Shown: one piece after another, positions 3,903 through 45,112 of the stretch
Layout: each line of letters opens with the position of its first letter
Position numbering within the stretch: the first letter of the stretch is position 1
Source of the DNA: Flavobacterium omnivorum
Lineage (GTDB): Bacteria; Bacteroidota; Bacteroidia; Flavobacteriales; Flavobacteriaceae
DNA: 64,000 bases
Reading direction: 5' to 3'
Assembly (NCBI RefSeq): GCF_900099915.1
Contig: NZ_FNDB01000006.1
Coordinates: forward strand, 62,001-126,000
The notes under the pieces: generated by a model
The model's database searches: none
What the model saw: the letters and a program-made list of their open reading frames with translations, nothing else
What the model was told of the DNA's origin: nothing
Program-made: the position numbers and the translations under genes

Positions 3903-5171
3903 TTAATTTGAGCTTTCAGTTACGGGTTTAAGTTTACTAAAATATTCTAACATTTGATACGCATTATCATAAGTAGATTTCCCGATATATGATAAAAACA
4001 TTTTCTCGGTGCTATGAGCAGTTATATTCATCAAAACTGATGTTGGAATTTTTCCATAAAAATTAGTTGCAAAAGACCGTCTGCAAACATGAGAACTTAT
4101 AACTTGCCATTTTTTATAATGTCCAGATGTTAAGGTTCTTTTATCATCGATACGCATCTTGCCTTTTACAATTGTATCAATTTCTGCAATTTCGCAAATA
4201 TCTTTACTGTATTTATTGAAATGTTCTAAACTAATTTTATAAGGCAATCCGTCTTCAATGATTTCGAGTGCTTCAGGCAATAAGGGAATTGCAACTAGTT
4301 TACCAGTTTTTTGTTGCTTTAATTCTATTATTTTAAAACCTTTTATATCTTTTAGATTTTTCACGGTTATATTCAACAAATCCCCAGCTCTTTGCCCAAT
4401 AAGACAACCAAGTAAAAGCCATTTCCGTGCGTTAATATGTGATTCACGTTTTAAGGTTGAATCTTTAATAAGCAACTGTTCAGCTTCAGTCAATACAATG
4501 ATCTCATCAGGATCTTTGAGTTCTTTAATCGCTTTTATTTGTTTAAACTGTGGATGTATGGGAATACCGCTTAATGAGGCCTTATTAACAACTGCTCTTA
4601 ATATTGAAATGTAAGTACCAACATAATTTATGGAACGTCCTTTACTCTTGTGATACTTTTTAAAAGCATCAATAAAATTTAAATCAATATTCCTAATCAG
4701 AACCTGCTTTCCATTCAAAGCATCGTTTTCATAGTTAACTATAAACTTTTTAAGATTGTCTAAGTTTTTTATCGAACCGCCCGTTAAATTATCGCCTTTA
4801 TCAATGTACGCATCTATGGAGTTGGTTAATATATCCAAGTCAATAACAATAATTTTATTATTGAATAAATCAATTTGAAGCTGTAACCAGTCAGCGGTAA
4901 ATTCTATTCCTGCGCTTATTCCATTATTATAAGCATCGTTAATGAAGACCGCTAATTTGTCTAGCTTGGATTTAATCGCTTTTAATTCTTCATTTCTCTG
5001 AATCGGTAGTGCTTTATCTTCACTCCAATCTTTTGGATTAATAACAAAACCTGTCTTACGTTTCCAAACTAAGTTTCTGTTTATTGAATAACGAACGTAA
5101 ATATTTGAATTATCATTTTTACTTTGAAGTAAGTATTTTACTGTGGCCATTATTTTGCTTATTTGAATCAT
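3903..5171 (-). CDS. Tyrosine recombinase (integrase) of a mobile element
   Basis: Site-specific recombinase that would integrate and excise the element. In the 422-aa reading an Arm-type DNA-binding domain lies at about residues 10-100, a SAM-like core-binding domain at about 115-210, and the catalytic domain at about 225-410. The catalytic set is visible: R261 in GQRAGD, K288 in QQKTGK, H361 and R364 in SSHVCRRSF, H386 in TAHSTEK, and the nucleophile Y395 in LSYIGK. All expected residues are present, so the enzyme looks intact. The upstream ATG overlaps a 17-bp palindrome; the ATG at 5150 (MATVKYLLQ) is the more typical start for this family. It is the last element gene before icmF, so one attachment site probably lies in 5172-5313. 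Confidence 0.93.
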   Translation of the reverse strand: MIQISKIMATVKYLLQSKNDNSNIYVRYSINRNLVWKRKTGFVINPKDWSEDKALPIQRNEELKAIKSKLDKLAVFINDAYNNGISAGIEFTADWLQLQIDLFNNKIIVIDLDILTNSIDAYIDKGDNLTGGSIKNLDNLKKFIVNYENDALNGKQVLIRNIDLNFIDAFKKYHKSKGRSINYVGTYISILRAVVNKASLSGIPIHPQFKQIKAIKELKDPDEIIVLTEAEQLLIKDSTLKRESHINARKWLLLGCLIGQRAGDLLNITVKNLKDIKGFKIIELKQQKTGKLVAIPLLPEALEIIEDGLPYKISLEHFNKYSKDICEIAEIDTIVKGKMRIDDKRTLTSGHYKKWQVISSHVCRRSFATNFYGKIPTSVLMNITAHSTEKMFLSYIGKSTYDNAYQMLEYFSKLKPVTESSN

Positions 5172-11552: not shown

Positions 11553-12260
11553 ATGAAAAAAATTGTACTGCTTTTAACTGCCTTTTCCTTATTTGGATGT
11601 GCTGAAATGCAACAAGTTTTAAATCAATTTCCACAAACGCCAGGAATTGGTGGTATTGATATTGCTGGCGGACTAAAAGAAGCGCTGAATAATGGAATTT
11701 CAAAACAAGTGACAAAATTGACCGCTACTGATGGTTTTTATAGAAATGAAGCGGTAAAAATTTTGCTGCCGGAAGAATTGAGAAAAGTAGATGCTGGATT
11801 GCGAAGAATAGGACTAAGTTCGTTAGCTGACGAAGGATTGAAAGTATTGAATCGTGCCGCGGAAGACGCAGTTAAAGAAGCGACACCAATATTTGTTGAT
11901 GCGGTCCGCAACATGACTTTTTACGATGCCAAAACAATTTTGATGGGTAATGAAAGTGCTGCTACTTCTTATTTACAAAATAGTACGTCGACTGCTTTGT
12001 ACGGAAAATTTAGTCCTGTGATTAAAAATTCTTTTACAAAAGTGGGAGCCGATAAAGTTTGGACAAACATCATTACGAAATACAACAGTATTCCATTAGT
12101 GAATAAAGTGAACCCTGACTTAACTGATTACGTTACCAATCAAGCATTGAATGGTGTATTTAAAATGGTTGCCGTGGAAGAAAAAAACATCAGAACGACT
12201 TTGAGTGCGAGAACCTCTATCTTATTGCAAAAAGTTTTTGCTTTGCAGGATAAAAACTAG
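11553..12260 (+). CDS. DUF4197 lipoprotein
   Basis: A 235-aa protein with a lipoprotein signal: MKKIVLLLTAFSLFGC, lipobox LFGC with C16. The mature part matches my knowledge of the DUF4197 family: mostly helical, with segments GLKEALNNGI, NEAVKILLPEEL, FVDAVRNMTFYDAKTIL and a Leu-rich tail. Such proteins are outer-membrane or periplasmic lipoproteins of unknown role. A TATCTTTG element 26 bp upstream may be its -7 promoter box. It precedes purU on the same strand, but the RNA-like repeat between them and the 226-bp gap argue for separate promoters. Confidence 0.88.
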   Translation: MKKIVLLLTAFSLFGCAEMQQVLNQFPQTPGIGGIDIAGGLKEALNNGISKQVTKLTATDGFYRNEAVKILLPEELRKVDAGLRRIGLSSLADEGLKVLNRAAEDAVKEATPIFVDAVRNMTFYDAKTILMGNESAATSYLQNSTSTALYGKFSPVIKNSFTKVGADKVWTNIITKYNSIPLVNKVNPDLTDYVTNQALNGVFKMVAVEEKNIRTTLSARTSILLQKVFALQDKN

Positions 12261-12360
12261 CTAGCAAGCATTTCTATTTTTAGAACATTAAACCGCTAAA
12301 TTCAATTTTTTTATAGAAAATATAAGGTTATTTTTGATAAATAGTATTGATAAACGCAAG

Positions 12361-12451
12361 GCCCTAGCCCTGATAGAAGCGATATCCTTTCCTTATCTCT
12401 TTTTTTGGAAAGAGATAAGGAAAGATTTAGCGGATAGCAGGAAACAGCTCC
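12361..12451 (+). ncRNA. Structured leader repeat, copy 1 (upstream of purU)
   Basis: Begins GCCCTAGCCCTGATAG and ends TAGCAGGAAACAGCTCC, with a long central hairpin in which CCTTATCTCTTT pairs with AAAGAGATAAGG. The same flanks with a different but still paired hairpin occur upstream of prfA and cysS. CCTG/CAGG and AGC/GCT can form an outer stem. The element ends 35 bp before the purU ATG at 12487 and is co-oriented with it. It may be the Flavobacteriia RNA motif called Flavo-1, but I cannot verify that. Confidence 0.6.
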
Positions 12452-12486
12452 TAAAATACATCAGGATAAAAACTAAAAATAGTAAT

Positions 12487-13341
12487 ATGCAAAAAATTAC
12501 AATCCTAATTCATTGCCAAGATCAAAAAGCAATTATTGCCTCGGTTACCAATTACATTGCTTCGATTGAAGGAAATATTATTTATTTAGACCAACATGTA
12601 GATGCAGACGAGAATGTTTTTTTTATGCGTTTAGAATGCGAGTTCAGCGCCCAAAACTGGGATATGGACACCATAAAAAAGGACTTTCAGACTCATTTAG
12701 CTGCGCCGTTTAAGATGTCTTGGGAAATTTACACGCAGGAATACAAACCTAAAATGGCTTTATTTGTTTCTAAATACGATCATTGTTTGTATGATATTTT
12801 AGGACGCTACAGCGCTGGTGAATTACAGCTTGAAATCCCACTTATAATTAGTAATCACGAAGATTTAAGAGCCGTGGCGGAACGTTTTTCGATTCCGTTT
12901 CATTATGTTCCTTTTAGCAAAGAAATTAAGATGGAAGGCGAACGGAAACAAATGGATTTACTAAAAGAATACAAGGTTGATTTTATTGTTTTGGCGCGGT
13001 ACATGCAAATTATAACTCCCGGATTAATTTCCCTTTATAAAAACAAAATCATCAACATTCATCATTCTTTTCTTCCCGCCTTTCCAGGAGCAAAACCGTA
13101 TCATTCCGCTTTTAAACGGGGTGTAAAAATAATTGGTGCCACAAGTCATTACGTGACCGAAGGATTAGATGAAGGTCCCATTATCGAACAGGATATTTCG
13201 AGAGTTTCGCACAGTCATTCTATAGAAGATTTTATTATAAAAGGACGAGATCTAGAACGCATGGTTTTGGCTAGAGCAATAAAGTTGCATGCAGAACGAA
13301 AAACTATGGTTTATAACAACAAAACGGTCGTATTTTCATAG
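12487..13341 (+). CDS. purU: Formyltetrahydrofolate deformylase
   Basis: Hydrolyses 10-formyl-THF to THF and formate, balancing the one-carbon pool and feeding formate to purine synthesis. The 284-aa protein has an N-terminal ACT regulatory domain (about 1-80, starting MQKITILIHC) and a C-terminal formyltransferase fold (about 95-284). The catalytic region reads INIHHSFLPAFPGAKPYHSA, followed by GATSHYVTEGLDEGPII; the Asn-His pair and the Asp fit the family triad. An in-frame reading extends upstream to 12334, but that part overlaps the structured repeat and has no homology-like content, so ATG 12487 is chosen. The repeat 35 bp upstream may act on its expression. Confidence 0.93.
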   Translation: MQKITILIHCQDQKAIIASVTNYIASIEGNIIYLDQHVDADENVFFMRLECEFSAQNWDMDTIKKDFQTHLAAPFKMSWEIYTQEYKPKMALFVSKYDHCLYDILGRYSAGELQLEIPLIISNHEDLRAVAERFSIPFHYVPFSKEIKMEGERKQMDLLKEYKVDFIVLARYMQIITPGLISLYKNKIINIHHSFLPAFPGAKPYHSAFKRGVKIIGATSHYVTEGLDEGPIIEQDISRVSHSHSIEDFIIKGRDLERMVLARAIKLHAERKTMVYNNKTVVFS

Positions 13342-22071: not shown

Positions 22072-23148
22072 TTAGAAAGCCTCACTCGCTTCTTTCAGTT
22101 TCTCCATATTGTTGACCAATTGAAGTTCATCAATCAATTTTTGAATTTTACCATTCATTACGCCGTCCATATCAAAAACATCCATTCCTACCCTATGATC
22201 AGTAACACGACCTTGAGCATAATTATAGGTACGAATTTTTGCTGAACGGTCACCAGAACTTACTTGTGAGGTACGTTTTGTTGCATCTTCGGCTTGCTTT
22301 TTAGCTAATTCTTGTTCGTACAAACGGGAACGCAAAACACCAAAAGCTTTGTCTTTATTTTTGTGTTGTGATTTCTGATCCTGACATTGTGCCACCAATC
22401 CGGTAGGAATGTGGGTCAAACGCACCGCCGATTTCGTAGTATTCACCGATTGTCCACCAGGTCCTGACGAACAGAAGAAATCCACACGAACATCGTTCAT
22501 ATCAATTTGAACATCGAATTCCTCCGCTTCCGGAAGCACCATAACTGTCGCTGCTGATGTGTGTACACGTCCTTGCGTTTCCGTTTGTGGTACCCGTTGC
22601 ACACGGTGAACACCAGCCTCAAACTTCAAAGTTCCGTAAACATCTTCGCCCGTAACTTCAAAAATTACCTCTTTGAAACCACCCGAAGTACCTTCATTCA
22701 TATCTACCACTGAAGTTCTCCAACCTCTGTTTTCACAATATTTGGTGTACATACGGAACAAATCTCCGGCAAAAATACTGGCTTCATCCCCACCGGTTCC
22801 GGCGCGAATCTCGACCATCACGTTCTTAGCATCTTCCTCGTCTTTCGGAATCAACATAAACTTGATTTCATCCTCTAGTTCCGGCAATCTTCCCTTGGCT
22901 TCGTCGAGTTGCATTTTGGCCATTTCGGTCATATCTGCATCACTGTTATCAGCAATTATTTCGTTTGCTTCTTCGATATTCGCCATCAAAATAACGTATT
23001 CATCGCGTTTTTCAGCCAAAGCTTTTAAACTTTTGTACTCTTGATTCAATTGCACATAACGCTTCTGATCCGAGATCACATCCGGCTGAATGATCAAATC
23101 CGAAATCTCATCGAAACGTTGTTTTACTATTTGAAGTCTATCTAACAT
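22072..23148 (-). CDS. prfA: Peptide chain release factor 1
   Basis: A 358-aa class I release factor that reads UAA and UAG. The GGQ catalytic loop is at 231-233 in [12 protein letters not shown]. The codon-recognition segment [14 protein letters not shown] (185-198) has the RF1-type P-x-T in place of RF2's SPF. The N-terminal helical domain and the C-terminal [14 protein letters not shown] segment are complete. About 190 bp upstream, on the same strand, lies a structured repeat also found before purU and cysS. Confidence 0.96.
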
Positions 23149-23632
23149 TTTCTTAGTCCTTTATTTAGAATGCAAAATTACGAAAAAAGTATCCAGTTTG
23201 CAAGATTCGTTTTTGGTGTATTCTCTATCAACTGAAAACTTCCCGAAGACAAAGCCATCAGTAACACAAATAGTACTATTGTAGAAACTTTAAACAGTAA
23301 ACTTTTAAACATTTAAACATTTAAAGTCTTTTTAGGAGCTATTTCCTGCTATGCGCTGCAATCTTTTTTTCGGCAAAAAAAGCCTTAAAAAAGGATTTTC
23401 ACTGCTATCAGGGCTAGAGAATTTGAATAATTAAAGGTCGTTTGCGGTTTTCCGTAAAGTTCTTGAATGAAAAGGAATTAGTTTTGTTGAAGATGATTTT
23501 TTATAAGTTTTTTCAGATTTAAATTATATATTTGTGAAGGACTACTGACCTTTATAATTTTCAAATTATAGACGACACTTAAAATTGAGTGATATAAAAA
23601 CATCAGACTTTTACTAAAAAATAGACTTATTT
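23149..23632. other. Intergenic stretch with a structured repeat
   Basis: About 480 bp between the divergent prfA and the gene at 23633. It holds the structured repeat at 23335-23417 (minus strand) and a TATATTTG -7-like box at 23527-23534 facing the plus-strand gene about 100 bp downstream. No TTG at the right distance was found for that box. Confidence 0.5.
23335..23417 (-). ncRNA. Structured leader repeat, copy 2 (upstream of prfA)
   Basis: On the minus strand it reads CTAGCCCTGATAGCAGTG, then a hairpin whose arms (TTTTTTT..GGC and GCC.AAAAAAA) differ from copy 1 but still pair, then GCATAGCAGGAAATAGCTCC. It is co-oriented with prfA, which starts about 190 bp downstream. Confidence 0.6.
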
Positions 23633-42650: not shown

Positions 42651-42787
42651 AGGCCTAAAAAAGAAACAAAAACACCTTGAAGAAGCGATAAAGTGCGTTT
42701 AAATAGTAGGAGCGATAGAAATTCTTTAATTTTTATTATTTATCTTTACCCCTTAAATAATTACACCCACTATAATAGTTGCTTTTA

Positions 42788-43459
42788 ATGATAAATAAAG
42801 AAGAATTTCAAGACGAAATAGGAGACAATCATATTAGTTTATCCGCAAAGAATCCAATTAGAGATGACGCTTTCACCATTTCTGATGATGATAAAATCGA
42901 AAAAATAAAAAAAGACGTTGAGAACATCCTGCTTACACTTGGAATGGACTTGACTGATGATAGTTTAAAAGGCACACCCAATCGTGTGGCTAAAATGTTT
43001 GTAAAAGAAATTTTTGGAGGTTTAAATCCTGCAAAAAAACCAAAAGCATCCACTTTTGACAACAATTACAAATATGGTGAAATGTTAGTTGAGAAAAATA
43101 TCATCGTCTATTCTACTTGTGAACACCATTTATTACCCATTATAGGAAGAGCTCACGTAGGTTATATTTCTAACGGAAGAGTTATTGGTTTATCTAAAAT
43201 GAACCGCATCGTAGAATATTATGCCAAAAGACCTCAGGTACAAGAACGCTTAACGATGCAAATTGTGCAAGAATTACAAATTGCTTTAGGCACTGAAGAT
43301 GTTGCTTGTGTGATAGATGCTAAACACCTTTGTGTTAATTCTAGAGGAATCAGTGATATCGAAAGTAGCACTGTAACATCCGAGTTTGGAGGAAAATTTA
43401 AAGACAGCGTTACTCGCAGAGAATTCTTAGATTATATCAAACTAGAAACAAAGTTCTAA
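42788..43459 (+). CDS. folE: GTP cyclohydrolase I
   Basis: Converts GTP to dihydroneopterin triphosphate, the first step of folate and pterin synthesis. From ATG 42788 the protein is 223 aa. Zinc ligands lie in STCEHHLLP and in the later HLCVNSRGI. The substrate segment GLSKMNRIVEYYAKRPQVQERLT is canonical. The N-terminal 45 residues are acidic and variable, as usual. A TTG codon 9 bp upstream is a less likely start. A TATCTTTA box about 38 bp upstream resembles a -7 element. Confidence 0.96.
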   Translation: MINKEEFQDEIGDNHISLSAKNPIRDDAFTISDDDKIEKIKKDVENILLTLGMDLTDDSLKGTPNRVAKMFVKEIFGGLNPAKKPKASTFDNNYKYGEMLVEKNIIVYSTCEHHLLPIIGRAHVGYISNGRVIGLSKMNRIVEYYAKRPQVQERLTMQIVQELQIALGTEDVACVIDAKHLCVNSRGISDIESSTVTSEFGGKFKDSVTRREFLDYIKLETKF

Positions 43460-43535: not shown

Positions 43536-43617
43536 GCCCTAGCCCTGATTGAAGTGAAAATCCTTTTTATCGCCCTTGCGAATAAAAAGATTGAAGCGGA
43601 AAGCAGGAAGCAGCTCC
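43536..43617 (+). ncRNA. Structured leader repeat, copy 3 (upstream of cysS)
   Basis: Begins GCCCTAGCCCTGATTGAAGTG and, after a central hairpin in which CCTTTTTATCG pairs with CGAATAAAAAG-type sequence, ends GAAAGCAGGAAGCAGCTCC. It finishes 16 bp before the cysS ATG, so it would lie in the leader or just before the translation start. Flanks match copies 1 and 2, while the stem sequence differs and stays paired. Confidence 0.6.
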
Positions 43618-43633
43618 AAAAAAAACAATTGAA

Positions 43634-45112
43634 ATGCCTTTATACAAGAGTCAGACTTTAAAAATATACAATTCACTTTCGGGAGAGAAAGAAACATTTA
43701 CACCTATTCATGAAGGAAATGTGGGAATGTATGTTTGCGGACCAACTGTTTACAGCAATGTGCATCTTGGAAATGTGCGAACATTCATGTCTTTTGACGT
43801 GATTTTTAGGTATTTTTTGCATTTGGACTACAAGGTTCGCTACGTTCGTAATATTACTGATGTAGGTCATATTGTGGATGATGTAGATGAAGGTGAAGAT
43901 AAAATTGCAAAAAAAGCACGCTTAGAGCAGCTAGAACCCATGGAAGTGGTGCAACGATATACCGTAGATTTTCACGATATTTTGAATGCTTTCAACTTTT
44001 TACCGCCTAGTATTGAGCCAACGGCAACGGGTCATATTATTGAACAGATTGAAATTATCAAGACCATTATTGATAAAGGAATAGGTTACGAAGCCAATGG
44101 ATCAGTTTATTTTGATGTAGTTAAATTCAATAAAACAAATCATTACGGGCGATTAAGTGGTCGAAATATCGAAGATATGCTTACCAATACGCGAGATTTA
44201 GACGGTCAAACTGATAAAAGAAATCCCCAGGATTTTGCGCTTTGGAAAAAAGCAGAAACACAGCACATCATGCGCTGGCCTTCGCCATGGAGTGATGGAT
44301 TTCCGGGTTGGCACGTAGAATGTACCGCAATGAGTACTAAATACTTAGGCAATCATTTTGATATTCACGGTGGAGGAATGGACTTAAAATTCCCGCATCA
44401 TGAGTGTGAAATTGCTCAAAACGAGGCTTGCACGGGTCAAACTCCGGTTAATTATTGGCTACATGCCAATATGTTAACTTTGAACGGTAAAAAAATGGCT
44501 AAATCTACCGGAAATAATATTTTACCCCGAGAAATATTAACAGGTGAAAATACTGTTTTAAGTAAAGCTTTCTCAGCATCTGTAGCCCGATTTTTTATGT
44601 TGCAAGCGCATTACCGCAGTATTCTTGACTTTTCAGATGACGCGATTGTTGCTTCTGAAAAAGGATATAAGCGATTGATGGAAGCAATAAATTCGTTAAA
44701 AGAGATCACTGTCGCTGCAAAAAGCACTATTAATATTCCAGCATGGAAGCAATTGTGTTATGATGCAATGAATGATGATTTTAATACGCCTATCCTAATA
44801 GCACAGTTGTTTGAAGGCGTTCGCTTTATCAATTTGCTAAAAGAGGAGAAAGAGAGTTTGGATGCAGAAGACTTAGATTGTTTTGCAAAAACAATGAATG
44901 CATTTGTTTTTGATGTGCTAGGACTAGAAGAAGAGAAAATTTCTGACAGCACTAACGATAAATTACAAGGAACAGTAAATATGTTAATCGAAATGAGAAA
45001 ACAGGCTAGAGAAAACAAGAATTTTGCTTTGTCTGATCAAATTAGAGACCAGTTGATCACATTAGGAATCCAACTTAAAGATGGCAAAGAAGGTACTACT
45101 TTCTCGATTTAA
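43634..45112 (+). CDS. cysS: Cysteinyl-tRNA synthetase
   Basis: A 492-aa class I synthetase charging tRNA-Cys. The N-terminal [16 protein letters not shown] has the zinc-ligand Cys and the HIGH-type motif HLGN (44-47). Further zinc ligands lie in HVECTAMS and [10 protein letters not shown]. The KMSKS motif appears as KKMAKSTGN. The DALR-type C-terminal helical domain is present. Length is normal. The structured repeat ends 16 bp before the start. Confidence 0.97.

Follow-up and report, generated by a model that had tools for sequence, protein, structure and literature searches.

Introduction

Flavo-1 was described by Weinberg et al. (2010) as a likely RNA that is not cis-regulatory (PMC2864571), and in RNA-seq data from F. 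psychrophilum its matches lie sense or antisense to transcribed regions without distinction, with many falling outside them (PMC9723704). Rfam types the family (RF01705) as Gene; sRNA. Despite the 2010 description and the existence of an Rfam family, we found no function assigned to Flavo-1 in the literature.

Several well-studied systems invite comparison. REP/REPIN repeats, with their RAYT (TnpA_REP, Y1) transposases, resemble Flavo-1 in being high-copy, intergenic imperfect hairpins that are patchily distributed, indifferent to orientation and strand-asymmetric. In the REP/RAYT system a Y1 transposase is expected where the repeat is abundant, whereas several genomes rich in Flavo-1 copies do not have it; moreover, a length of 80-100 nt, GNA/GNA loops and exchange of tips, all seen in Flavo-1, are not known as REP traits. 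Integron attC sites fold from a single strand into imperfect hairpins, whose outer parts are conserved and whose terminal stem varies yet stays paired. Flavo-1 likewise combines a conserved outer part with a variable paired tip, but it is dispersed rather than arranged in cassette arrays, and shows no excess of synteny breaks. Regulators in 5′ leaders, such as riboswitches and attenuators, are also structured and covarying, and some Flavo-1 copies do lie just upstream of genes; Flavo-1, however, displays neither co-orientation nor a gene theme, and is mostly situated on the far side of promoter-like motifs.

Here we examine three copies contained in a 64,000-nucleotide stretch of the Flavobacterium omnivorum genome (hereafter, the window), together with their relatives elsewhere, and add to the known family its genome-wide placement, its conservation at orthologous sites, the replacement of its tips, and a strand-specific wobble signature.

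Results

Identity of the window copies

The preliminary description of the window had noted three structured repeat copies upstream of purU, prfA and cysS, and had listed Flavo-1 among the options for their identity. That option was correct: Rfam Flavo-1 matches at 12362-12448 (+), 23338-23419 (-) and 43537-43614 (+), with E-values of 3e-14, 4e-14 and 1.8e-13, respectively, confirm the copies where they had been placed; the model aligns with each of them from end to end and scores 70-73 bits, the gathering score being 42 (Table 1). The shared flanks, TAGCCCTGAT and AGCAGGAA..AGCTCC, were found in all three. The window copies are ordinary members of this already known family, the same in sequence, structure and taxon, with nothing to distinguish them.

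Table 1. Flavo-1 copies, neighbouring genes and putative promoter elements in the window
Feature	Position	Strand	Support
Flavo-1 copy 1, full element with GCTCC 3′ end, 5′ of purU	12362..12454	+	own model R1 73.6 bits; RF01705 73.4 bits
Flavo-1 copy 2, divergent spacer 5′ of prfA	23332..23419	-	R1 93.2 bits; RF01705 72.9 bits
Flavo-1 copy 3, folE-cysS spacer	43537..43620	+	R1 83.5 bits; RF01705 70.5 bits
purU, formyltetrahydrofolate deformylase	12487..13341	+	TIGR00655 385.8 bits
prfA, peptide chain release factor 1	22072..23148	-	NF001859 504.5 bits; TIGR00019 488.8 bits
cysS, cysteine--tRNA ligase	43634..45112	+	TIGR00435 455.5 bits
folE, GTP cyclohydrolase I, gene 5′ of copy 3	42779..43459	+	NF006824 255.7 bits
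DUF4197 gene, gene 5′ of copy 1	11553..12260	+	PF13852 262.3 bits
Putative prfA promoter (TTG-N20-TAATTTTG), between copy 2 and prfA	23173..23203	-	sequence and 9-species comparison
Putative purU -7 box TATTTTTG, 5′ of copy 1	12329..12336	+	sequence comparison

Fold, covariation and strand

The element is laid out as YYY-TAGCC-(imperfect hairpin)-GGA-N4-5-GCTCC-A-tract, with GCTCC and the A-tract forming its 3′ end. Its outer stem carries purine internal loops, GNA opposite GNA, which flank a two-base-pair step, plus a bulged C, and its tip is a long, variable stem; aligned to the Rfam consensus, the window copies match this imperfect hairpin. The GNA/GNA loop motif stacks well both as RNA and as DNA. 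It had been claimed that the central stems differ between copies while their arms remain complementary, which holds perfectly for copy 1 and less so for copy 2, which has an interior mismatch, and copy 3, which has a small asymmetry. RNA folding z-scores were -4.2, -0.8 and -1.6 for copies 1, 2 and 3, respectively, and folding energy was discarded as proof of structure for the latter two, for which it is weak.

The structure of copies 2 and 3 was accepted instead on the basis of covariation across 20 copies. In this set, 95.3% of hairpin cells were paired, as opposed to 81.9% after shuffling, and 54 two-sided changes were observed, as opposed to 12.1 in the shuffle, which bears out the claim that the stem is maintained by paired changes. 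The signal was lost when the partner was slid by 1-3 columns, a control biased in favour of the structure, as the 20 copies had been selected from a single sub-form and the structure was a modified version of the Rfam one. At seven outer pairs, counted over all copies in two species, G.U occupies 29 cells and A.C 6, the two species having many sites in common and the cells not being independent. This preference points to the plus strand as the one that folds, rather than to both strands of a cruciform, and it fits RNA and single-stranded DNA alike. The preliminary description had regarded a changing but paired stem as the mark of selection on RNA; the paired changes are there, while the inference to RNA is weakened, since entire tips are often exchanged while the site itself stays put, and single-stranded DNA would give the same signature. 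No conserved sequence that might serve as a built-in promoter was found upstream of Flavo-1, every position before the YYY triplet carrying at most 0.18 bits.

Some copies show variations on this layout. A second sub-form (TTGCGTGAGGGAT...AGCCCGACCC...GGGTCACGCCC) has the Flavo-1 core but differs in its outer stem and extends further at the 3′ end; it includes copies 44, 46, 49 and 54-58 of this genome and others (L052, L056, L061, L062, L063), with copies 54, 56 and 57 being near-identical and located within about 6 kb. In copies 87 and 90 (L107 3001-3126, L110 2995-3125), AAAAGA is separated from the right arm by an additional stretch (TTCACTAAACTT..GGAGTTCAGTGAACTTCGTT). This sequence also makes up the outer portion, on the 5′ side, of copies 67, 71, 92 and 93, which represent a third sub-form, and its recurrence suggests that sub-forms may have exchanged sequence. 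Certain tips, e.g. those of copies 45, 70 and 77, mimic the core in miniature (GTA-GC-GATA-GC-GGA), with GNA/GNA loops around two base pairs and a GNNA loop as a cap.

Genome-wide placement

At a threshold of E <= 0.001, this genome yielded 94 Flavo-1 matches, the majority above the cut-off, and 93 of the 94 are intergenic according to ORF calls around every copy. Written relative to the element strand (left gene, E, right gene), their contexts are -E- 34, -E+ 24, +E+ 23 and +E- 12, as obtained from longest-ORF heuristics that may misjudge individual contexts. The 3′ neighbour is co-oriented with the element in 47 cases and opposed in 46; on the 5′ side a divergent gene is somewhat commoner (58 vs 35). 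Placement is therefore indifferent to the direction of neighbouring genes, and the co-orientation with the downstream gene that had been remarked upon at purU, prfA and cysS is true of these three copies and does not extend to the genome. Random placement relative to gene orientation had been named in advance as an outcome that would speak against the initial reading, jointly with a lack of covariation beyond the three copies; the former is what we find, whereas covariation does extend beyond them.

Nor do the neighbours genome-wide show the one-carbon or translation theme initially noted for the three window copies. The ten classified co-oriented neighbours (a nucleotidase, TyrA, AsnS, a phosphohexomutase-type enzyme, NuoI, RimO, FabG, PorX, KdsA and GcvT) share no functional theme, and a neighbour gene family common to Flavo-1 copies was looked for and not found. 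The placement data agree with the earlier reports in revealing no cis-regulatory pattern (PMC2864571; PMC9723704). Copies 7 and 32 occupy one 352-bp spacer upstream of asnS in opposite orientations (L040 2764-3081).

Position relative to promoter-like motifs

Promoters of the Bacteroidota type follow the pattern TTG-N18-21-TAnnTTTG. A cis-regulatory leader is expected to lie on the same strand as the gene it regulates, and between its promoter and start codon, but Flavo-1 is co-oriented and opposed about equally often, and at gene starts genome-wide the strict promoter-like motif was seen 13 times between element and start codon and 0 times beyond the element, all of these being motif matches rather than mapped promoters, with most gene starts having no strict match. 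The looser TAnnTTTG box alone occurs 42 times on the gene side of the element vs 12 times on the far side. With such counts, the leader RNA considered as an option in the preliminary description does not stand as a general rule.

At prfA, the -7 box (TAATTTTG or TATTTTTG) is kept in nine of nine species, always between element and gene, so that a transcript beginning at this box would not include copy 2. The putative purU box is located 5′ of copy 1, which would place this copy in the purU 5′ UTR; the box is kept in G293, where the site is filled, and a similar box, TAGTTTTG, is present in G243, where it is empty. Syntenic purU has no Flavo-1 at that site in either G243 or G179 (PurU protein identity is 90% for G293, 88% for G243 and 76% for G179). 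In the latter two genomes, a Flavo-1 copy is found one gene further upstream, before the DUF4197 gene (L251, about 4409-4514, and L201, 10373-10447, respectively), a position at which the window genome has no copy. Copy 3 stops 13 nt short of the cysS ATG, and its site contains the element in the same orientation in all ten relatives whose syntenic block was read.

Conservation in place and tip replacement

In G243, which shows about 84% DNA identity at the cysS locus, a copy adjoins the orthologous gene for at least 55 of the 94 sites, a number close to a floor, as sites without a recovered orthologue may be empty, missing or not retrieved. Orientation is the same in 53 of the 55; of the two flips, one is artefactual and arises from the double site formed by copies 7 and 32. 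Sharing is independent of gene orientation context (-E- 21/34, +E+ 15/23, -E+ 13/24, +E- 6/12). Flavo-1 sites are mostly inherited in place over long times.

Among 43 comparable orthologous pairs, median identity is 86% in the outer arms, 68% and 80% in the flanks, and 67% in the tips, and the latter range from near-identical to unrelated (13 pairs above 85%, 13 below 60%). Direct reading of orthologous pairs shows whole tip stems swapped with the outer bases unchanged. Derivation of the tips from other repeats in the genome was rejected, since in the part of the genome searched their matches outside the family are no commoner than those of reversed tips. Outer variable pairs at orthologous sites display 40 two-sided changes vs about 14 expected if the sides were independent, a covariation part of which could be mimicked by whole-element replacement at one site, and their one-sided Watson-Crick/wobble changes comprise 11 G.U vs 1 A.C. 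The outer stem is kept by paired changes, and in a strand-asymmetric manner.

Distribution and mobility

Copy number is 94, 103 and 86 in three species, the first being that of this genome. Within the genus, Flavo-1 was found in 58 of 61 sampled genomes, ranging from 0 (G018, G020, G058), with at most 1 in G024 and G033, to at least 64 copies per genome; across the phylum it was found in 22 of 158 genomes and 14 of 86 genera, some distant genomes having 20 or more copies, and in none of 14 control genomes. The distribution is patchy. Individual sites also differ: at the site of copy 6, 8 of 15 relatives have the element and 7 do not, with the genes almost touching in four of the 7, while in G179 the neighbouring spacer is kept and the element is absent. 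Comparison of filled and empty sites revealed neither clean ends or excisions nor target-site duplications.

A Y1/RAYT transposase was rejected as the driver, as Y1_Tnp genes do not track copy number; no match to Y1_Tnp (PF01797) was found in the copy-rich G004, G030, G053 and G054. Phage carriage was likewise dismissed, in that 31 exact viral-contig matches to the 3′ end included one convincing full element, the rest being weak or none. This element (L166 471-563, 60.9 bits) lies on a viral contig that stems from the genome of an isolate, and is possibly host DNA at a prophage edge. Nor is orientation linked to replichores, as there is no strand switch between them in the complete genome G045. 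Its chromosome (G045:C1) has 58 of 86 copies on the plus strand, a bias without a replichore pattern. A role in cassettes or synteny breaks was discarded as well, with neighbours kept in 81% of the checks with the element and in 75% without it, i.e. with no excess of breaks.

Discussion

We tentatively regard Flavo-1, with a probability of roughly 45%, as a REP-like dispersed hairpin that is recognised as a single plus strand, more probably of DNA than of RNA. A trans-acting factor would bind the plus strand when it is single-stranded and folded into its hairpin, and, by comparison with REP hairpins, the folded strand is more likely to be DNA. Copies may owe their dispersal to a recombinase or transposase that recognises hairpins and belongs to a type other than Y1/RAYT, and may now be maintained by the same enzyme or by a protein of the host that binds hairpins. 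Paired changes and tip swaps could result from arm-to-arm or copy-to-copy copying during replication or repair, with the recognition loops presumably being held by selection. A more specific version is doubtful. In it, a candidate hairpin-recognising, non-RAYT enzyme of Bacteroidota would have spread the copies of a single-stranded DNA hairpin family and would exchange entire tips at fixed chromosomal sites, and a protein that reads the paired GNA/GNA loops would retain the copies whichever way the genes run.

The REP-like hairpin is favoured by the family identity, copy number, orientation indifference and the 13:0 position of promoter-like motifs, as well as by context-independent site sharing, better-kept outer arms and paired changes in place. 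It also agrees with the G.U excess, the lack of upstream promoter sequence, the filled and empty sites, the patchiness, and the F. psychrophilum RNA-seq data (PMC9723704). Against it, no partner protein was found, and Y1/RAYT is absent from copy-rich genomes; lagging-strand processing of DNA predicts a replichore strand switch, and there is none in G045; and the empty sites are not clean excisions and have no target-site duplication. The excess of G.U over A.C and the GNA/GNA loops fit RNA equally well, and the conservation of outer arms in place points to a post-insertion function that the model leaves vague.

If each copy were instead transcribed on the plus strand from its own promoter, as an sRNA or a protein-binding RNA, the covariation, the plus-strand G.U preference, the independence from gene orientation and the Rfam typing would all be accommodated; such independent sRNAs are nevertheless unlikely, given about 90 copies per genome, no conserved promoter sequence upstream, and a transcript mapping in which many matches fall outside transcribed regions with no sense preference (PMC9723704). 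Less probable still is control of the downstream gene, by translation or attenuation, from copies within 5′ UTRs, e.g. at purU and cysS. The short distance between copy 3 and the cysS ATG, its fixed orientation in the relatives read, and the apparent location of copy 1 in the purU 5′ UTR argue for such a leader, but co-orientation is absent genome-wide, conservation is about as frequent for opposed as for co-oriented copies, promoter-like motifs lie mostly between element and gene, syntenic purU genes in two relatives do without the element, and the neighbours have no theme in common.

On a par with the leader in its low probability is the notion that the copies are inert remains of an extinct non-autonomous mobile element, in which pairing persists through self-correction of the hairpin by template switching at replication. 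It would account for the presence/absence differences, the patchy distribution and the block replacement of tips, and is in line with our co-occurrence check for Y1/RAYT, in which no living transposase was identified. Templated correction, however, would erase the internal loops and the bulge, which are kept, and does not predict the G.U excess, and the outer arms are better conserved than the flanks. A double-stranded DNA site that binds protein or organises the nucleoid without folding would suit dispersed, intergenic, orientation-indifferent copies, but a function confined to the duplex leaves no room for covariation or for strand-asymmetric wobble, making this the most improbable of the explanations considered.

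With these results, the question shifts from the gene that is regulated to the reader of a hairpin that may flank any gene on either side. Congeneric species with 0 vs at least 60 copies, the filled and empty sites, and the strand and loop signature offer usable handles on it.
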